DNA of 24,559 nt from a virus. The stretch lies in IMG/VR virus record IMGVR_UViG_3300043419_001263, positions 1 through 24,559 of that record. The stretch is one strand, 5' to 3'. This document shows, piece by piece, positions 7,945-20,869 of this stretch. The notes beneath the pieces were generated by a model. It was not told the DNA's origin. It saw only the letters and a list, made by a program, of their open reading frames with translations, and did not search any database. Position numbers and translations under genes: made by a program. Every line of letters begins with the position of its first letter. The stretch's first letter is position 1.

Positions 7945-9173
7945 TATGCTGAAGGTCCATATGATTCTAATTTACCTAATACAACCCAAGCAGAACCGGT
8001 TCTGATTAGTGTAAACGTTACTAATTCTTTTTTGTTAGCAGTTCCAGTAGGAACTGTAGAACTTAACCAATTAATCGTTTGACTGTTTCCATTTATTTGA
8101 ACAGCATTAGGTATATATGGTGTAGATCCTTGTGCAAGTATTAATTTGCATTGAATGACACGATCATTGTTTGATGGTACATTTGTAAAATTAGGAGTAA
8201 AGTTCTGAGATATTGAGTTGTGATACCACGTAGATCCAGTTCTAAAATCATGTGTAGTCACTAAACCAGCAGATATTTTAGTTTGAATAGCTTCTATTAA
8301 CTGACCATGCGTTGTAGATCCTTCTAATTCTGCATTACTCAATCTTGTATTTTCAGCTAAAACTGCAGGACCTTGGCCAATAGTTGTGTATATTGTCTTT
8401 ATAGTTGGCGAAGCAGCAATACTAGAATATGTTTCATATATGTGGCCACCTTTATCATTAACAGAAGTTGAGAATGCATATTCACATTGTGCATTGATTT
8501 GCTGAATCCACATAGTATATGTAGTATTAGGTAACAACGTATAATTAGTAGTTGATAAAAGATTAGAACCTAATTGATTTACAATTTGGGCGTTTGGACC
8601 AAAGTGACCATAGGCTACCATTGCAGGAGTAATCGCAATCTGCGAAGCAGTCCATGCTGGACCAACTTGAATAGCAAACCACGCTCTGTTGTCTACGCTA
8701 ACATATTTAGTTAAGTACAATGCAGAGATTGGTTCATCGCCTGTTGTAAATGACACATAGTTAACAGCAATTCCAGGTACGGTGATTCCATCTAAAAATC
8801 CATGGATTGTTAAACGAGGATCTCCACTAACACCACCTCCAGCAACTGGATTTCCATTGGCGTCTAATAGTTCTCCATCTGTATTAAATGTAAATTCTGC
8901 ATCACCAGCTCTAATAATAACGTTATCGCTATTTCCAGAAACAACTAGATCGTCGTTTTCTTTTCTAATATATGCACCTTCAACACCAAAGTCTATTTGC
9001 GCTGTGTCAGTTAATGTAACATGACCATCTGTACCAACAGAGATTTCATTTGTGTCTGCTTTTAGTTTTAAGTCATAACCCTTTGCAGATTCGATCGTGA
9101 ACGGTCTGTCACCTAAACTCTCAGTGATCTTATCACCAGTTGTAAATTTAATTTTTTGATACTTAGGTAGCAT
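7944..9173 (-). CDS. Virion structural or fibre-like protein, 409 residues
   Basis: The first 110 residues are repeating beta turns (KLKADTNEISVGTDGHVTL, IIRAGDAEFTFNTDGELLD), typical of trimeric fibre shafts. A Gly-rich linker (AGGGVSG, about 110-117) leads to a beta-rich distal part. The C-terminus VTFTLIRTGSAWVVLGKLES is a pattern common at the end of phage tail-fibre or baseplate-decorating proteins. It overlaps both neighbours by one base (TAATG), so the gene is translationally coupled between the 548-residue protein and the spanin gene. Receptor binding is plausible but not shown. Confidence 0.7.
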   Translation of the reverse strand: MLPKYQKIKFTTGDKITESLGDRPFTIESAKGYDLKLKADTNEISVGTDGHVTLTDTAQIDFGVEGAYIRKENDDLVVSGNSDNVIIRAGDAEFTFNTDGELLDANGNPVAGGGVSGDPRLTIHGFLDGITVPGIAVNYVSFTTGDEPISALYLTKYVSVDNRAWFAIQVGPAWTASQIAITPAMVAYGHFGPNAQIVNQLGSNLLSTTNYTLLPNTTYTMWIQQINAQCEYAFSTSVNDKGGHIYETYSSIAASPTIKTIYTTIGQGPAVLAENTRLSNAELEGSTTHGQLIEAIQTKISAGLVTTHDFRTGSTWYHNSISQNFTPNFTNVPSNNDRVIQCKLILAQGSTPYIPNAVQINGNSQTINWLSSTVPTGTANKKELVTFTLIRTGSAWVVLGKLESYGPSA

Positions 9174-10819
9174 TATGCGTTCTCATGTTCTTGTGATACG
9201 TAAGTCTTGAATCTTGGCATTGGTTTACGTTTTAATGGTTCACTCATCATCTTAACCTTTTTACCTGCATCGCCTTGTGTACCAGCAATCGAACCACCAC
9301 CAACATTGTTAGCGGCTACTTCTTCTTTCTGTAATGATTTCTCATGGTTAATCTCTGCTTTATCAGCATGTGCTTGTGCATGAGAGTGTTGTCCTAGTTC
9401 TTCGTGGTAACGAGACATTGAATCGTGATAGTCTGCAAGATGTGTATAGCGAGTTGATGCATCATTTGCTTTATCGGCTTTCTCTTTATGGCCTTGTGCA
9501 ATGCTCCAATGTTTGTCTGCAGATCCACGACCTTCTGCTAATTCAACTTTAGCACCATGACCTTTCATTGCAGATTTAAATGAATCTGCTTTGTGGGATG
9601 GAACTTTAACGTATGTTGCTTTATCTGTTGTATCAGATACTTTAGCATCGTGCTTGGTGAATGTAGACTTATGATCTCCAGTTAGTTTATCTCTGTGATC
9701 GATGCGGAATTCAACATGAGATTCTACTTGCATACGACGACGTGTCATCACGCCTTGCATATAACCGTTCTCATATTCTGTATAGTCTTTTGTACCAGCT
9801 TCATATGGATTTTTCTTAGGTTCTTCTTGTTGACCTGACCAGAAACCATGAGAGAAACATTCAGTCTCTTCTACAATGTATCCTTCTTCTAATTTAGATT
9901 CAAGCATAAATTCTTTATGTCCGTTTAACACGTCTTCGATCCATTCTTTTTGTACTGGTGCGTCTAAGTCGTGATGAGATTTCTGTGCGTCTTTTAAACT
10001 CATAACAATTAATGCACCATAAGTACGCTTACCATCTGCATCTCTGCCACGTGCTTTCATACGAGCACGTAGTTGTGTTTTACCTTCTAATTCTGGTGAA
10101 CCTAATTTTGCACGATCTTCACCAGTGTGGTAGAATCCATGACCACCACCAATTTGGATGTATGGTGTATCACGATCTTTACCGTAGTGTGCTTTAATTG
10201 GTTCTGCATCTGGATGTGTATGATAGACGTTACCTTTTTGTAAGTCAGATTCATAATCACCAGTTGGTTTGTCCCACTGTTTGTTTACTTTTTGTAAGAA
10301 ACCAGTTGCTTCGATTGATTTGGCAGTCTCAGGATATTTTGCTCTTGAACGATCAGAGATACCCCATTTTTTACCATCATGCTTTAGTTCGATTTGACCG
10401 AACATAGCTTTATGATCTTTCTTAACTTCTAAGTTATGTTCTTGACCATTGTGTTTGAACTTGGCATCTGGTGCATCACCGCTTGAACCAGCAGTTGTAG
10501 AATCTGGATCTGCTTTACCATACTTCTTAAGTTTGTCGTTTACATCTTTCTCATAATCAAATCCACCGCTTGCATACGCTTCATTAATCATAGCTTGTAC
10601 TAATTCAGTAGCATCAAACTGTTCTGATTGGTTTTGTGCATTAGCGGCGCGTTTCTTTTCAGCGTCCAACATTTGTTGACGTTTAGAATTTAATGTTTCA
10701 ATGTCACTTGCAGTTTTATCAGACATAGCTGCTTGCGTGGCTTTATGAGTGTCACGAATCTTTTGCACTTCCTGTTTCATTGAATCTAGTTTGCGCTGTA
10801 GAGATGGATTGATTGGCAT
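9173..10819 (-). CDS. Late protein with possible PD-(D/E)XK domain, 548 residues
   Basis: The N-terminal 65 residues form a helical coiled coil (KQEVQKIRDTHKATQ). Residues about 115-275 look like a PD-(D/E)XK nuclease core: Asp118, then Glu131-Val-Lys133 in NLEVKKDHKAMFGQIELKHD, with Gln142 and Lys146 following. The remaining half is charged and His-rich (GQHSHAQAHADKAEINHEK). The C-terminus holds NNVGGGSIAGTQGDAGKK and EPLKRKPMPRFK, a Gly-rich motif recurring at the end of phage internal or structural proteins. The stop overlaps the next start (TAATG). It could be an internal head protein carrying a nuclease, or a structural protein with a dead nuclease fold. The ribosome site is poor (TAAGAATAAGAA). 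Confidence 0.7.
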   Translation of the reverse strand: MPINPSLQRKLDSMKQEVQKIRDTHKATQAAMSDKTASDIETLNSKRQQMLDAEKKRAANAQNQSEQFDATELVQAMINEAYASGGFDYEKDVNDKLKKYGKADPDSTTAGSSGDAPDAKFKHNGQEHNLEVKKDHKAMFGQIELKHDGKKWGISDRSRAKYPETAKSIEATGFLQKVNKQWDKPTGDYESDLQKGNVYHTHPDAEPIKAHYGKDRDTPYIQIGGGHGFYHTGEDRAKLGSPELEGKTQLRARMKARGRDADGKRTYGALIVMSLKDAQKSHHDLDAPVQKEWIEDVLNGHKEFMLESKLEEGYIVEETECFSHGFWSGQQEEPKKNPYEAGTKDYTEYENGYMQGVMTRRRMQVESHVEFRIDHRDKLTGDHKSTFTKHDAKVSDTTDKATYVKVPSHKADSFKSAMKGHGAKVELAEGRGSADKHWSIAQGHKEKADKANDASTRYTHLADYHDSMSRYHEELGQHSHAQAHADKAEINHEKSLQKEEVAANNVGGGSIAGTQGDAGKKVKMMSEPLKRKPMPRFKTYVSQEHENA

Positions 10820-14912: not shown

Positions 14913-16586
14913 TTACGCCTTTTTAGATTTCTTAGCCATTTGTTTCATCGCTAAGCGTGCTAAATGGCGCGCCCTTGATTGTGGTGTATGTTCTGCACCT
15001 GATTTATCTTTAATGCTATCTGGAGTTTTTGTATATGGACCATCGAATGGTACATTCTCAACGCCTTCTTTTGGCACACAATTAGGAACTTTCTTGCCAT
15101 TTTTCATTTTCATTCCAATAGCAGTATAACCTTTCCAACATGCGTCTTTCAAACCTTCTTCTTCAAGATTCGTTTCTTCGCCAAGTTCTTCTTTTGATTG
15201 CAAATAATCTCTTACAGTTGTAATATAATCTTGTGCTAGTGTAATTTTAGATTGAACCCATTCAGGCATGTTCTCATCATCTTCAATCATGTCGACTAAA
15301 TCTTCTGAGTTACGCAAGATAGTTTGTAATTGAGTACGAGCCATTTGACCTTCATAGTCATACTCGCCCTTATCACTATCTTTTTTCTCATCTAACATTT
15401 GTTCTTGCACTTTAATTTTCATGCGAGAGAACATCGTATCATCACCAGTTACTAAACTAATTAATGACTCATATACGTTTAATAATAGATCACGTTGTTT
15501 GATTGATAGTTGTTTATCTTCTGAAAGAGTCTTCATTGCCAAACGAAGGTTTGCAAGTTCATCTTTCTCAACTAAACCAAGACGAGCTAATAAGTCAAAA
15601 CGTTTATCAGTTTTGTCTTTAGCTTCTTCTAATTCAACTTCTTCTTTAGTTAAACCGTGATATGCACCTTTAACCATATTGATTTGTTTCTCACCAACTC
15701 TAGCAAAGAAACCTTTTTTCTTTGGAGGATTCTTAAGAGCTGCAATGCGATCGTCTGATTGCTTATCAATCGATTTTTTTAAATGATCTGCTGCATCTTT
15801 ACGGACATCGTCCATAGAGTATTCATTGATTGCTTCTTCATGAACCATACCTGAATGGTTTGCGTCATGCACTTTCCAACCTTTTTTGGCAAAATGTTTC
15901 TTACCAATTTCAATAGCACGATCTTTATCATGTGCTGTTACACGTACAAACTTTTGAATAAGTTCTTTACGCTTAGTAACAGCTGGATGGTCAGAGTCTG
16001 AAACAGTAACACCAATTCTATGTACGCCGATTGATGGTGCAACTGGTGCTTGTTCTTTCATCTCAGTACCATTAATCTTCTTAATAGTTTCTGGATGTGA
16101 ACGATTTTGTGTACGTTCTTTATCTAAGTCTTGAGTAGTTAACTTATCACCAATCTTCTTACGTAAGTATGCTGGAACATCTGACTTATTAACACCTTCG
16201 TCGATCTCAGTTTCTTCTTTCATGTACTCATCGTATTTGGATTTCAAATGCGCTTGTGCTTTAGACTGCGCATATTTACCGTGTTCTTTACGAGAGAACT
16301 CAGCTTTAGTTTGGCCTCTGTTACCTAGTACTTCATAGTTACCTTTACCATCAGAAGACACATAAGGTTTTTGTTTACCTTGCATATGAACAGGAACTGC
16401 ACTTTCGTTTGCTAATTTTTTATCATCAGCATCATTATCACCGTCATTATCTAGATCATCTTCTTTACTATAGTCATCATCGGCAATCTTCTTGCGCTTG
16501 TGAACTTTACGACCGCCTGCAGATAAAACAAAATCAGCAGATGAAACGTATTTTGCTTCTAGTAGTTGTCTTAATGTCTTAGCCAT
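14913..16586 (-). CDS. Prohead-core or internal virion protein, 557 residues
   Basis: GGAG lies eight bases before the ATG. The start MAKTLRQLLEAKYV contains LLEA, fitting the T4 gp21 cleavage pattern (L/I-x-E then A/G/S) after residue 10. Residues 43-55 form an Asp-rich loop (DDLDNDGDNDADD) of calcium-binding type. The middle is helical and charged, with RLGLVEKDELANLRLAMKTL and VYESLISLVTGDDTMF. A later segment (EGQMARTQLQTIL, then MPEWVQSKITLAQDYITTV) recurs in head-region proteins of cyanophages. Near 483-505 the CWKGYTAIG and VPNCVP motif is shared with the gene at 16841-17791. The tail is basic. It is most likely a scaffold or internal protein, proteolysed during maturation. Confidence 0.75.
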   Translation of the reverse strand: MAKTLRQLLEAKYVSSADFVLSAGGRKVHKRKKIADDDYSKEDDLDNDGDNDADDKKLANESAVPVHMQGKQKPYVSSDGKGNYEVLGNRGQTKAEFSRKEHGKYAQSKAQAHLKSKYDEYMKEETEIDEGVNKSDVPAYLRKKIGDKLTTQDLDKERTQNRSHPETIKKINGTEMKEQAPVAPSIGVHRIGVTVSDSDHPAVTKRKELIQKFVRVTAHDKDRAIEIGKKHFAKKGWKVHDANHSGMVHEEAINEYSMDDVRKDAADHLKKSIDKQSDDRIAALKNPPKKKGFFARVGEKQINMVKGAYHGLTKEEVELEEAKDKTDKRFDLLARLGLVEKDELANLRLAMKTLSEDKQLSIKQRDLLLNVYESLISLVTGDDTMFSRMKIKVQEQMLDEKKDSDKGEYDYEGQMARTQLQTILRNSEDLVDMIEDDENMPEWVQSKITLAQDYITTVRDYLQSKEELGEETNLEEEGLKDACWKGYTAIGMKMKNGKKVPNCVPKEGVENVPFDGPYTKTPDSIKDKSGAEHTPQSRARHLARLAMKQMAKKSKKA

Positions 16587-16589
16587 TTA

Positions 16590-16844
16590 TTAATCTCCGA
16601 AAGCAACTGCTACAGCTTTAACTGCTGCACCTGCTGCAATAGTTTCTGCTGCAGTTTTACGTACAAATGCTACGTCACCAGCTTTAACTGTAACTGTACC
16701 TGTTGTATTGTCTTCTAAAGCAACGGTCAATAATACTGCTCCAGCCGTATCATTATATACACGCACTAATTGTGCTCCGCTTAAAGTAGTAGCAGTTGAT
16801 AATGATACTTCAGTACCTAAAAGTTTGAGGATTCTTTCGCTCAT
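16590..16844 (-). CDS. Small putative virion protein, 84 residues
   Basis: The protein is rich in small and beta-forming residues: LVRVYNDTAGAVLLTVAL, then TGTVTVKAGDVAFVRKTAAE and KAVAVAFG. It reads as one compact beta sandwich. Similar short proteins with a final A/V-AV-AF strand occur in marine T4-like phages as structural proteins, from memory. Own late promoter 64 bases upstream and the ATGA overlap with the preceding gene suggest high late expression, as expected for a capsid decoration or other abundant virion part. That role is inference. Confidence 0.7.
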   Translation of the reverse strand: MSERILKLLGTEVSLSTATTLSGAQLVRVYNDTAGAVLLTVALEDNTTGTVTVKAGDVAFVRKTAAETIAAGAAVKAVAVAFGD

Positions 16845-17791
16845 TTGTTATTCCCATCGAATGTTGATAAGTCTTCTTTAAATGACTTAAGCTTTGTTTT
16901 ATTTTTCTTATTTATAGGTACACAGTTTGGTACTGTTTTACCATCTTTTTCTTTTGTACCAACCATACTGTAACCAGTCCAACAAGGATTTCCCATCTTT
17001 TCAAGCATTTGATTGATGACAGCTTCTTCTACTTTAATAACATCGCGCAACCATTTACGTTGCTTAACACCTTCGTAAGTTTCAATAATTACATAGTTAG
17101 AGCCTAATCGTTGGATTTGACCAATGTCTTTAGATTCTTTTACTTCAACTACATCACCAACTTTAAATAATTCACCGCTTACATATGCTTCACGTTCTTT
17201 AGACAATGTTGGTAACTGGATATGTTGTCTAAAATTAAATGTTTCTTTTAATCCTAATCCTACACGGATAGCATTAAAAAGCTTTTGATTTTCTTTTATT
17301 GTTGATGGCAAAAACTTATTAAACAACTCGTAGTTGTTGTCTTTAACTGACTCGACAACTTTTGCTTCGATGTCATGTGTATCAACGGAAATAAAATCAA
17401 TTGTCTTGAAATTGTAACGAGATCTATTGTCTTTATTTACAGATTCAATTAGTTGTGTTCGCACATTAGGCATAACAAGATTAACGTGTGTATAACCTTG
17501 TTCGTACAAAGAATCTAGTGCATCATATAAATCTACGATCTTTGAATCACTAATGATAGAACGCGCTTGACGTGGAAACATCTTGCGCATAAATTTAATC
17601 TTTGTATTGTAATCTAGCGGAGAACTCTCATTACATTCTTGTGAAGTATAGATCCTATACGGTCCACCTTGTGCAGTTTCATGCACTTTATTAATGATTT
17701 TCTCATGCTCAATATTTGGAGGATTAAAATGACCAAAAGTTATCGTAACCTTGCCACTAGATTCCTTCAAATATTCCTTAAACTGTTTCAT
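16841..17791 (-). CDS. Degenerate nucleotidylyltransferase with SH3-like and Cys tail
   Basis: The 316-residue protein starts MKQFKEYLKESSGK at 17791 (GGAAGC upstream; the longer frame starts inside the preceding gene). Residues 14-180 align by eye with the nucleotidylyltransferase at 18673-19293: GHFNPPNIEH versus GRMNPPTTGH, and GYTHVNLV versus GVTHLHIV. However, TTGH has become NIEH and the SGTKMR motif is replaced by IEAKVVE, so catalysis is probably lost. Residues about 206-255 (FKVGDVVEVKES, GQIQRLGSNYVIIE, RKWLRDVI) look like an SH3/KOW barrel seen in virion proteins. The tail has CWTGYSMVG and VPNCVP (270-292). It is likely a structural or scaffold protein derived from the enzyme. The stop overlaps the next start (ATGA). 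Confidence 0.75.
   Translation of the reverse strand: MKQFKEYLKESSGKVTITFGHFNPPNIEHEKIINKVHETAQGGPYRIYTSQECNESSPLDYNTKIKFMRKMFPRQARSIISDSKIVDLYDALDSLYEQGYTHVNLVMPNVRTQLIESVNKDNRSRYNFKTIDFISVDTHDIEAKVVESVKDNNYELFNKFLPSTIKENQKLFNAIRVGLGLKETFNFRQHIQLPTLSKEREAYVSGELFKVGDVVEVKESKDIGQIQRLGSNYVIIETYEGVKQRKWLRDVIKVEEAVINQMLEKMGNPCWTGYSMVGTKEKDGKTVPNCVPINKKNKTKLKSFKEDLSTFDGNNK
16909..16916 (-). promoter_or_regulatory. T4-type late promoter TATAAATA
   Basis: Exact late consensus, located inside the 3' end of the 316-residue gene and 64 bases before the ATG at 16844. It would raise expression of the small 84-residue virion protein and the genes after it. Confidence 0.75.
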
Positions 17792-17792
17792 A

Positions 17793-18230
17793 TTATAAAC
17801 CGCTTCCAGCGTTAAATTTAGCCAACTTCTTGCCACTCTTCCGAGCAATGTCTTCTTGTTTCACACGACGTAATAGTTTACCTGAAATACGTTTGATAGA
17901 ACCCTTCATCTTTGAGAGTTTCAAATCAACTTGTTTTCTTTGTGCGATTGGAATTTCTGAGCGAGAACGACCTTGATAAAGGCGTTTAATTAGCAGATTG
18001 CGTGCTCTTTGTTTGGCTCTTGCTGTGAGACGGTCTTTGCTAGCTAAGCGTCTTGATTGGATCTTCTTAGCCATTTGGATGCGTGCTGAACGGCGCATGA
18101 ATTGTTGTTTCTTTTTAATGCGCGCTGCAGTATCTAATACCTCATTTAGTATAGACTGCTCTTCCTCTGTTAGCCCAACAGACTCAGCGACATCATCGAA
18201 TTCGTGCGAATACTCTTTAAACGTAATCAT
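17793..18230 (-). CDS. Highly basic head-region protein, 145 residues
   Basis: It starts MITFKEYSHEFDD with GGGA five bases upstream, again resembling a capsid-targeting N-terminus. After a short acidic helix the remaining roughly 110 residues are a long Arg/Lys-rich helix (KKKQQFMRRSARIQMAKKIQ and onward, with RLTARAKQRARNLLIKRL). This composition fits nucleic-acid binding within the capsid, as for T4 internal proteins, or a prohead core component. Related basic proteins occur in marine T4-like phages, from memory. The stop lies one base before the next ATG, so the genes are translationally linked. Confidence 0.75.
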   Translation of the reverse strand: MITFKEYSHEFDDVAESVGLTEEEQSILNEVLDTAARIKKKQQFMRRSARIQMAKKIQSRRLASKDRLTARAKQRARNLLIKRLYQGRSRSEIPIAQRKQVDLKLSKMKGSIKRISGKLLRRVKQEDIARKSGKKLAKFNAGSGL

Positions 18231-18297
18231 ATTTTCCCATTAACCTCGTGTTGGAGACATTCCAACCGTTGATAATAATATTGAACATGCTTTTCAT
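18217..18297 (-). CDS. Possible micro-protein in the late leader
   Basis: A 26-residue frame, MKSMFNIIINGWNVSNTRLM then GKYDYV, lies between the late promoter and the gene at 18230 and overlaps that gene by 14 bases. The pattern looks more protein-like than random, but no ribosome site precedes either ATG (18297 or 18288). It could instead be chance coding over an RNA hairpin. Confidence 0.2.
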   Translation of the reverse strand: MKSMFNIIINGWNVSNTRLMGKYDYV

Positions 18298-18351
18298 GGG
18301 CGGTTACCAGTCCACAGCCCTACAAGTTCTTCAATACAACTGGTGTAATCT

Positions 18352-18359
18352 TATTTATA
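18352..18359 (-). promoter_or_regulatory. T4-type late promoter TATAAATA
   Basis: An exact TATAAATA in the gap downstream of the 91-residue gene, about 120 bases before the ATG at 18230. The leader it would produce contains small inverted repeats (GTTGGA/TCCAAC at 18250-18266, and GGGC/GCCC near 18298-18320) and a possible micro-frame. Confidence 0.75.
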
Positions 18360-18370
18360 TAAGTTTTAGT

Positions 18371-18646
18371 TTATATCTCATCATCATCTAAGTCCCAATC
18401 ATCTGATCCTTCAGATGTTAGGATAGTCATCCTAAATTTACTTGGTTCCAAACCTTGCAATTGAGGTGCTAATTCAAGGTAATCTTCATCTTCTAAGCTA
18501 TTATGTACTACTTTCATTGGATAGTACTTTCGAATAGAAGCTCTCTTCTTTGGAGCTTCAGTCTTAACTTCAACCCACTCATCAGGTTCTAACTCAAACG
18601 TCTTGAGTCTTTGTTGCTTCTTATGGGTTTTCACTTTTGACTTCAT
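18371..18646 (-). CDS. Hypothetical protein, 91 residues
   Basis: The protein has a basic start (MKSKVKTHKKQQRLK), a middle WVEVKTEAPKKR, and a very acidic tail (SDDWDLDDDEI). No clear ribosome site precedes the ATG at 18646, so a start further inside is possible. It lies 26 bases after the nucleotidylyltransferase stop and just before a TATAAATA late promoter. The charge split, basic head and acidic tail, is common in small assembly or scaffolding proteins. I do not recognise a family. Confidence 0.65.
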   Translation of the reverse strand: MKSKVKTHKKQQRLKTFELEPDEWVEVKTEAPKKRASIRKYYPMKVVHNSLEDEDYLELAPQLQGLEPSKFRMTILTSEGSDDWDLDDDEI

Positions 18647-18672
18647 AGATTATCAGATTATTTCTGTACTAA

Positions 18673-19293
18673 TTAATCAGTATGTCCCATACCTTTGCGT
18701 ACATCATTCATTAATTCTTTTGCATCGTTATCTGATACATGGCTAGGAACACCTTTGCGGAATGACTTAAAGTCATTGTTCTTAGCATGTTCGCGCATCT
18801 TTGTACCTGACATACCTTCGTCGCCTTCAGCATCAGGATCTCTTTCACCTGAAGAATGTACTGTTATCTTCTTAAACTTGAATGGTACTTTACCATCTTT
18901 ATTAGGTTTACCATTTAGTTCTTTGAATTTCTTTTTGTATTCATCAACGCGATCTGAACCAGCAACAATGTGTAAGTGTGTTACACCTTGTTTATGTAGT
19001 TCTGCAGCATGAGAGAAGATTGTTGGATTGTCTTTAGATGCAGCTTTAATATTTGCACCTGGTGCATAACGTCTTAAGTGTTTTACTTTTTGTTCTGAAG
19101 ATAATGGATTCTTTTTAGAGTCGTTAGAGTGAGAAACAACCATGTGATGTTCTCCACCTACTTCTTTAGCCACGTCTTGTACTTTGTTGATAACTTTAAG
19201 GTGACCAGTAGTTGGAGGATTCATGCGACCATAAGCCAATACTGCGTGCTTGGCTTCAGCTTCTTCTTTTAGGAATGTTAAGAATGTCAACAT
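18673..19293 (-). CDS. HIGH-type nucleotidylyltransferase (NMNAT/cytidylyltransferase-like)
   Basis: The 206-residue protein has GRMNPPTTGH at 22-31, the nucleotide-binding T/HxGH motif, and SGTKMR at 162-167, the matching C-terminal motif of the family. This is the fold of NMN adenylyltransferase, pantetheine-phosphate adenylyltransferase and glycerol-3-phosphate cytidylyltransferase. Such enzymes transfer a nucleotide to a phosphate-bearing acceptor with release of pyrophosphate. Both catalytic motifs are intact, so activity is likely, but the acceptor is not readable. It starts MLTFLTFLKEEAEA, again like a capsid-targeting sequence ending in E-E-A. Its position among head-region genes and beside a second, degenerate copy (16841-17791) is notable. 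Confidence 0.8.
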   Translation of the reverse strand: MLTFLTFLKEEAEAKHAVLAYGRMNPPTTGHLKVINKVQDVAKEVGGEHHMVVSHSNDSKKNPLSSEQKVKHLRRYAPGANIKAASKDNPTIFSHAAELHKQGVTHLHIVAGSDRVDEYKKKFKELNGKPNKDGKVPFKFKKITVHSSGERDPDAEGDEGMSGTKMREHAKNNDFKSFRKGVPSHVSDNDAKELMNDVRKGMGHTD

Positions 19294-20474
19294 TATTTTC
19301 TTACCTTTAATAGATTAGCTTTAGCAAACTCTGCACGATTAACTAATTTAGTTGGTTCGCCTTTATGATTAACAACGAAACCTTCTGGTTTCGACTTCTT
19401 ACCATCGATATGGTGTTCTAAACCACCTTCGTGTGTCTCTAATGCACTCGTTAAGATGTTCTTTGCTTTTTGCAAGTGCTGATGCATCTTAAACAAATTA
19501 TCATAATGTTCTTTGTTCTTCTGAACATGAGATACGTGTTCTTTTCCAGCTGATAGTTTTTCTGCCTTACTTTTTTCTGTCTTAACTTTATCTGCTAGTT
19601 TTTGATGGACGTTTTTAAGATGTTGCATAAAACCTTCTGCAGATGGAGTTTCATCTGTACGTACAGTATGATTGATGTATGTCGATAAGTGACCAGCTTC
19701 GCCTTGATGTTTCAAAGTACCTGCATACATCTTTTTGCCTTGTTTCTTATGAATCTCTTTTGCAGCATCCATGTGTTTTTTGAATTCTGCTTCTTGATCT
19801 TTCGTATAATGTACTTGTGTAGTATCGTGTTCAGCAGATTTTAAATGTACATCTGGGTGTGATTCAAAATCTTCTTGACTTGCATTGGGTGTAGCATGCA
19901 TTGTGTGAAGATCTTTGCCTTCGTATTTAGTATGCACTACAATACCAACTTTAGACTTCTTAACTTTGTCAGCCTCTTCGCCTTTAGCTGTGTAGGTGAT
20001 TGTGTTTGGTGTGAACGATACACTGCCATCTTTATTTTTCTTATGATCGTCAGGTGTATGCATGATATCACCTTGATATACACCATTTTTAGGAGCAACT
20101 TTAGGGAGATGCTTAAGCGCAGCTTTTAATTTTGTTGCCAAACCTGGTGCATGACCATGATTATCATCAACATCTTTTTCGGTGTAATTGATCTTTGGAT
20201 TTTTGTTGAATGCAGATTTAGATGCAACAAAGAACTTACCAGTTTTTGGGTGGTGGCCAAAAACAACAGCAGGAGAACCGTCATACTTCATTGTTAGTGC
20301 AGTACTGTGTTCACCAGCCTTGATAGAGTCATGTGCTTGTTGTAAAGCACTATGAGCATGATCGAAACCTTCTGAACCATGAAACAATGGTCTATCTTCA
20401 GCATGATGAATGTGCTTTAGTTTTGCACCTTCATCTTCCTCTAATAGAAAGTTCGTAAACGATTTCATTGTCAT
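19293..20474 (-). CDS. Ligase/capping-superfamily-like nucleotidyltransferase protein
   Basis: The 393-residue protein shows motifs of the covalent nucleotidyltransferase superfamily (DNA ligases, RNA ligases, capping enzymes). They are KYDG at 63-66 (motif I, nucleotidyl-lysine), VYQGDI at about 132-137 (motif III position), a VGIVVHTKYEG strand at about 176, EGFVV at about 364-368 (motif IV) and Lys about 376 (motif V candidate). I recall the family as a phage DUF, possibly DUF6267, without an assigned reaction. The N-terminus MKSFTNFLLEEDEG resembles a capsid-targeting sequence. A long charged coiled-coil-like insertion lies around 290-345. I use the ATG at 20474, since the ATG at 20489 has its purine tract touching the codon; 20468 is also possible. 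It overlaps the following gene by one base (TAATG). Confidence 0.75.
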   Translation of the reverse strand: MTMKSFTNFLLEEDEGAKLKHIHHAEDRPLFHGSEGFDHAHSALQQAHDSIKAGEHSTALTMKYDGSPAVVFGHHPKTGKFFVASKSAFNKNPKINYTEKDVDDNHGHAPGLATKLKAALKHLPKVAPKNGVYQGDIMHTPDDHKKNKDGSVSFTPNTITYTAKGEEADKVKKSKVGIVVHTKYEGKDLHTMHATPNASQEDFESHPDVHLKSAEHDTTQVHYTKDQEAEFKKHMDAAKEIHKKQGKKMYAGTLKHQGEAGHLSTYINHTVRTDETPSAEGFMQHLKNVHQKLADKVKTEKSKAEKLSAGKEHVSHVQKNKEHYDNLFKMHQHLQKAKNILTSALETHEGGLEHHIDGKKSKPEGFVVNHKGEPTKLVNRAEFAKANLLKVRK

Positions 20475-20476
20475 GT

Positions 20477-20869
20477 TTAGCAATTCCATTTCCTTAATGC
20501 CAAAGCTTTACGTGTTGGTCGACCTTTTTCATCTTTCATCGGACCATCTACTCCGCTCATGCGAGCACAAAAAGATTTACGACGTTTAGCAGCTTTACTT
20601 CCAGGTTTTAATTTAGAAGGTTTAGTAGTTACAGCAGTTTGCAATTTGCTACCAGGATTTTCTCTACGATATGCATCAACACCTTTTTGTGTCAATCCAC
20701 CAGTAGAAGACTTATGACCTTTAGCATCGATAGCTGCTTCTTCTAGATCTGTTTCTTCTTTGCAGTCACACTGTTCAGGTGTATCTTTCTTATATTTCTT
20801 GGTTAACTTTTTAGTTCCCCATTCTCCTGCGCCGTGTTCTTCTTCTAAGTATTGTTTGAATGTAATCAT
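20477..20869 (-). CDS. DUF6321-like capsid-region protein
   Basis: The 130-residue protein begins MITFKQYLEEEHGAG, which resembles the capsid-targeting N-termini of T4 internal proteins. The last 75 residues match what I remember as DUF6321: GLTQKGVDAYRRENPGSK, then TTKPSKLKPGSKAAKRRKSF, CARMSGVDGPM and a terminal RKWNC. The domain is strongly basic and occurs in many phages, which suits DNA binding inside the head. Two Cys pairs (CDCKEE near 34-36; CARM and terminal C) might bind metal. It overlaps the preceding gene by four bases and is followed by the ligase-like gene. No enzymatic function is known to me. Confidence 0.8.
   Translation of the reverse strand: MITFKQYLEEEHGAGEWGTKKLTKKYKKDTPEQCDCKEETDLEEAAIDAKGHKSSTGGLTQKGVDAYRRENPGSKLQTAVTTKPSKLKPGSKAAKRRKSFCARMSGVDGPMKDEKGRPTRKALALRKWNC

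Follow-up and report, generated by a model that had tools for sequence, protein, structure and literature searches.

The capsid-targeting sequence (CTS) is classically known from phage T4, where amber-suppression genetics on the internal protein (IP) IPIII assigned residues 4 and 7 to targeting and residues 8 and 10 to processing by gp21 (PMC9026906), and a review has proposed that T4-like phages load various proteins by means of this signal. The T4 sequences, as read from the record, are MKTYQEFIAE/A for IPII and IPIII (the slash marks the cut), MKTFKEF and MKTFKEFTSTTTPVSTITE/A for IPI, and FGSFLTE/A for gp23. Here, we analyzed the entire IMG/VR record IMGVR_UViG_3300043419_001263, a viral fragment of 24,559 nucleotides (24.6 kb) hereafter called the window, in which a row of genes at 14,913 to 20,869 carries N-terminal leaders resembling the T4 signal. 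We propose that these leaders are very probably T4 IPIII-type capsid-targeting propeptides, carried by head-packaged enzymes.

The motif M-x-x-F-x-x-[FY]-L-x-E, which keeps the register of the T4 IPIII CTS, stands at the start of four neighboring genes of the minus strand, named here by their start positions: (i) 20869, a basic DUF6321 protein of 130 amino acids (20477..20869; PF19846, E 1.1e-23) whose leader MITFKQYLEE/E (20840-20869) is kept in homologues; (ii) 20468, a DUF6267 protein of 391 amino acids with ligase-type motifs (19293..20468; PF19782, E 1.2e-100; leader MKSFTNFLLE/E at 20439-20468); (iii) 19293, an intact nucleotidylyltransferase of 206 amino acids by its motifs and predicted fold (18673..19293; PF01467; leader MLTFLTFLKE/E at 19264-19293); and (iv) 17791, its degenerate paralogue of 316 amino acids (16841..17791; phrog_395, E 1.1e-51), with a leader conserved in homologues (MKQFKEYLKE/S, 17762-17791). 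For the 20468 gene, the open reading frame opens at 20489 and contains an ATG at 20474, ahead of this start; MKSF is where the homologues begin. Two further minus-strand genes complete the row, namely, 18230, encoding a strongly basic protein of 145 amino acids (17793..18230; K+R 38 versus D+E 15; leader MITFKEYSHE/F at 18201-18230), and 16586, encoding a repetitive charged protein of 557 amino acids (14913..16586) that matches phrog_9737/4359 modules only and begins with the weak variant MAKTLRQLLE/A (16557-16586). The preliminary description of this DNA had stated that four of the six leaders share F-x-x-F/Y-L-x-E, which is exact, and all of the leaders are present on the minus strand.

Five of the six leaders have aromatics at residues 4 and 7, 16586 being the one that does not fit, and the processing residues (L/I at 8 with E at 10) are found in the four exact leaders and not in 18230. 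The latter keeps both aromatics and Glu10 with Ser at residue 8, and its close homologues share FKEYSxEFD. That serine makes processing at E10 unlikely in this family; an L-T-E site lies further along, as in T4 IPI, which is a good parallel since both have the aromatic part followed by a later L-T-E. Membership of 16586 in the set is uncertain from its sequence, its leader being marginal and its close homologues beginning MKTLAQFLEA or MKSLKDFLEA. A shorter variant, M-K-x-[LFI]-x-x-[FIL]-[LI]-E-A, is seen in relatives of the 557-amino-acid protein and in the nucleotidylyltransferases of Melnitz-2 and DLP6 (window 16557-16586, minus strand; in related loci, given here as L numbers with positions, L002:14914-16866 and L001:19851-22019).

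A chance origin of the leaders was rejected on two controls. Of the 3,661 distinct internal methionines of the same loci, 7 are the first residue of the exact T4-register motif, giving 0.055 expected at the 29 gene starts of the window, where 4 were seen (Poisson P about 4e-7). Across 117 sequences with 1,573 called genes, 266 genes were found to start, at an ATG, with a motif much like it, whereas 200 permuted motifs averaged 6.2 and none of them reached 266; the counts of both controls are not independent trials, because the related loci are mutually akin and two of the patterns used to fetch them overlap leaders (MTMKSFTN, KEEAEAKH). Among 106 unique leaders of the related loci, residue 4 is aromatic in 99 and L/I precedes x-E in 96, counts that are in part a product of the motif used. 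The search for a counterpart of the signal at the C terminus gave no clear overall enrichment (26 occurrences, where controls averaged 12 and reached 24 at most). Two nucleotidylyltransferases without the N-terminal leader (L121:7998-8591 and L126:7998-8585) end in SFSQYIKE and SFSQFIRG, as though the targeting part had been transferred to the C terminus, and S-SCSM1_93 has the leader-like end FKEFLEYIE.

The leaders could also be alike only through gene duplication, and 19293 and 17791 are indeed paralogues. However, the leader heads at least 10 unrelated families, including DUF6267, DUF6321, nucleotidylyltransferases, a HAD phosphatase-like family, and several small or uncharacterized proteins, to which the S-adenosylmethionine (SAM) hydrolase and the kinase of cyanophage virions described below are also unrelated. 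This breadth already contradicts shared descent, leaving it next to no credit, and paralogy as the sole cause was discarded. In the DUF6267 alignment, where identity falls to 27%, the leader residues Met1 and Glu10 do not vary. In related loci, the leader is found on nucleotidylyltransferases and DUF6267 proteins. The HAD phosphatase-like protein at L026:2751-3365 (phrog_415, polynucleotide kinase) begins MLNFKEYIKEQ, close to the DUF6267 leader.

The enzyme assignments made earlier for the proteins behind these leaders were borne out. The 19293 protein carries PTTGH and SGTKMR, with T28, G30, H31, S162, K165, and R167 invariant in the alignment, and the best fold match of its model is NadD (E 1.5e-6). 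By these motifs and the predicted fold, which give the superfamily and not the substrate, it is an intact nucleotidylyltransferase of the HIGH superfamily with a NadD-like fold. It falls in phrog_3041/395, and the phage nicotinamide mononucleotide (NMN)-adenylyltransferase family phrog_3462 matches it weakly. In 17791, PNIEH replaces the PTTGH active-site motif. At L088:8001-9773, a leader-bearing nucleotidylyltransferase is fused to a P-loop kinase-like domain (weak Zeta_toxin match) in a NadR-like arrangement. In the DUF6267 protein, KxDG, QxD, EGxV, and K376 are invariant, with KxDG, EGxV, and the lysine in ligase order. Its confident model (predicted local distance difference test score 87.7) is disordered over residues 1 to 16 and folded after them, which fits a leader that can be removed. 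Among its top Foldseek matches, ligases and capping enzymes come up repeatedly but weakly (E about 0.5 or worse). Sequence comparison of the DUF6267 protein and the nucleotidylyltransferase with solved structures gave nothing useful, and no paper on DUF6267 was found in the open-licence literature. A reasonable guess is that, within the first minutes of infection, this cargo would serve nicotinamide adenine dinucleotide (NAD) or nucleotide supply together with the repair or protection of nucleic-acid ends.

The prohead machinery expected by the capsid-targeting interpretation is found in sister records. Among 18 long records carrying leader genes, Peptidase S77 (gp21) is found in 8 and gp23 in 10, records without a match being possibly incomplete. 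In the gp23 proteins, L-x-E sites lie around residues 50 to 60, and the gp21 proteins have an N-terminal [YF][LI]xE of their own followed by E, D, or T. The 81-kb record of locus L080, whose nucleotidylyltransferase is 84% identical to that of the window, has a T4-type prohead protease. T4-like cyanophages, Methylophilales phages, and Stenotrophomonas phage DLP6 encode relatives of the window's proteins, and the T4-type genes of the window lie on the minus strand; no close DNA relative of the window was found among phage records, the DNA-level matches being nrdA fragments only.

Published virion proteomes of cyanophages offer an independent test of the proposed targeting. In the S-CREM2 virion proteome (Table 3 of PMC10665884), leaders are found on a SAM hydrolase (MKDFDSFLEE), a kinase (MKRFDAFLTE), and a cytidylyltransferase (MKNFSSFLTEA), a Cas9-like nuclease has FASFMAEA from residue 19, and the listed proteins gp13 (MKDLHSFLTE) and gp136 (MQTFSMFFSE) are also leader-bearing. 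With a list of 55 named non-structural proteins that we drew up ourselves, excluding tail endolysins, and a pattern loosened to admit the Cas9-like protein, the leader was present on 4 of the 4 reported in the virion and on 0 of the 51 undetected (P 2.9e-6). Using the strict T4 register on all 219 proteins, it was found on 4 of 52 detected versus 0 of 167 undetected proteins (P 0.003). The only enzyme that the S-SZBM1 paper lists besides structural proteins is a cytidylyltransferase, whose leader is MRFRQFIIEA, an NMN adenylyltransferase (NMNAT) labelled as virion protein in the S-SCSM1 source begins MKSFLQFLKEA, and the cytidylyltransferase reported in S-SM1 virions (PMC3037559) begins MKKFSAFLNEA. 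The S-CREM2 set carries more weight because its members are unrelated, whereas the four virion cytidylyltransferases are homologues. In S-CRM01, the leader or a variant of it is present on several genes in a row around that of a virion-reported kinase. Moreover, the leaderless DUF6267 proteins of S-CREM2 (gp87) and S-SZBM1 (141) are absent from the virion proteins reported for these phages.

Besides the two choices made in the S-CREM2 test, several points weigh against head packaging of these proteins. The window lacks gp21 to gp23, and two of its six leaders (18230 and 16586) are imperfect. The small leader-bearing proteins S-SZBM1_191, S-SZBM1_192, and S-SCSM1_30 (a look-alike of S-SZBM1_191) were undetected in the virion proteomes, the association between leader and virion was not significant in S-SZBM1 alone, and the value for three proteomes pooled (P 0.0016) comes from counts entered by hand. 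In addition, the authors of two of the proteomes caution that abundant proteins may contaminate virions. The leader-bearing enzymes could then be lysate contaminants whose leader has another role or none, which we consider very improbable, as none of the 51 other named non-structural proteins of S-CREM2, replication and metabolic enzymes included, was detected, the 4 detected being leader-bearing. A last point concerns the residue after E10, which is more commonly E, Q, or D than A, unlike the sites of T4 IPII, IPIII, gp22, and gp23. This often acidic residue, like the Ser at residue 8 in the 18230 family, would suit a docking helix for another partner (neck, tail, scaffold, or host protein), which would make these proteins virion-bound rather than processed head cargo, and cleavage is indeed something that we infer. 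Nevertheless, the register is identical to that of the T4 CTS, L/I at 8 and Glu10 are what a processing site needs, and the gp21 propeptides of the same phages, with E, D, or T after the predicted site, are equally tolerant at this position and match the loose residue of the leaders. A docking helix appears improbable to us for these reasons.

Some related features were noted in the same phages. An extended leader, approximately M-x-x-S-R-W-x-x-W ... [FL]xSF[LMI]xEA, begins the virion Cas9-like protein of S-CREM2, with similar starts in S-CRM01 g128 and phage MA01 (L006:7704-10313, minus strand; L151:8422-8973; L152:6216-9137). The virion-detected S-CREM2 gp160 (L008:28342-29235) contains GFTGAAAPEGPVAGYDP, a near copy of a gp23 segment (L008:18481-19851) shortly after the presumed cleavage site, and the virion-detected S-CREM2 gp137 ends, as read by eye, with a DUF6321-like C terminus. 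Near structural genes, a small leader family includes S-SZBM1_191 (L148:22311-22628; MKSFKSFLSESVNISGDFNGN) and S-SCSM1_30 (L153:44215-44535; MKTFKQFMSESVNISGDFNGN). The phrog_26930 protein of the window (9173-10819, minus strand) is without a leader and ends in PRFKTYVSQEHENA; homologues of it have the leaders MKSFGSFLNEE and MKSFRGFLIEE (L084:7029-7994 and L094:3833-4804). The preliminary description had called the leader-bearing proteins late, which was not established: the sequence TATAAATA, taken as late-promoter support, occurs 3 times in the window versus 2.3 expected and is not enriched, one copy lying upstream of 18230.

Altogether, the T4 CTS register, the unrelated families, gp21 and gp23 in sister records, and the agreement between leader and virion argue for the capsid loading suggested in the preliminary description. 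We propose a model in which the aromatics at residues 4 and 7 would bring the new protein into the prohead core, a gp21-type protease would cut after L/I-x-E10, and the freed protein would stay beside the DNA inside the head and most likely enter the host at infection. In the window phage, the cargo would comprise a nicotinate-nucleotide-adenylyltransferase-like enzyme, its degenerate paralogue, the ligase-type (covalent nucleotidyltransferase-like) DUF6267 protein, and two small basic proteins. The earlier statement that no described system has this combination was too strong for the cargo, because enzymes in cyanophage virions are already known; for the link between leader and cargo it appears right, and none of the papers found in the open-licence literature describes the CTS in cyanophages. 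Hence, the CTS in T4 and the virion enzymes of cyanophages were known, and what is new is the connection of the two and the breadth of tagged families. We incline to the broader view that a single short, interchangeable N-terminal tag serves aquatic T4-like phages in preloading unrelated enzymes that act before phage gene expression, an injected proteome that could be predicted from sequence; the proposed kit includes a NAD-type adenylyltransferase, the ligase-like DUF6267 protein, a HAD phosphatase, a SAM hydrolase, a kinase, and a Cas9-like nuclease. The tag probably predicts the head-carried enzymes of a phage, since tagged enzymes of related phages are found in purified virus particles. 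Virion enzymes of cyanophages have so far been without a sorting explanation and suspected as contaminants; a readable tag would separate cargo from contaminants, list candidate first-contact effectors of aquatic phages that are abundant, and direct attention to NAD, SAM, and nucleic-acid chemistry early in infection as what packaged enzymes target; its natural variants could be used in head-loading tools.

Compared with T4 IPI to IPIII and Alt, the window-type proteins share the ten-residue N-terminal leader with aromatics at 4 and 7, L/I at 8, and E at 10, basic proteins and enzymes (Alt in T4) as cargo, here predicted, and a gp21-type protease, here in sister records. They differ in that the nucleotidylyltransferase pair and the ligase-like protein have no known relation to the T4 internal proteins, the position following the cut is less constrained, and packaging in the window phage is a prediction from sequence. 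With the phage enzymes NadV, NadM, and NadR and the head-packaged NAD-ADP-ribose enzymes (PMC9503650), the window shares an adenylyltransferase of the HIGH superfamily, some relatives of 19293 having a P-loop kinase-like domain as in NadR; the head packaging of those enzymes was proposed from gene context, whereas here it is suggested by the targeting sequence, and the motifs and predicted fold of the window nucleotidylyltransferase assign it to a superfamily rather than to a substrate. The cyanophages S-SM1, S-CREM2, S-SCSM1, and S-SZBM1 share the cytidylyltransferase/NMNAT-like family and the leader on virion-detected proteins, whose presence in virions is reported without a sorting signal in the available parts of those papers. 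Finally, DUF6267 is leaderless in S-CREM2, S-SZBM1, and S-SM1, whereas that of the window bears the leader.

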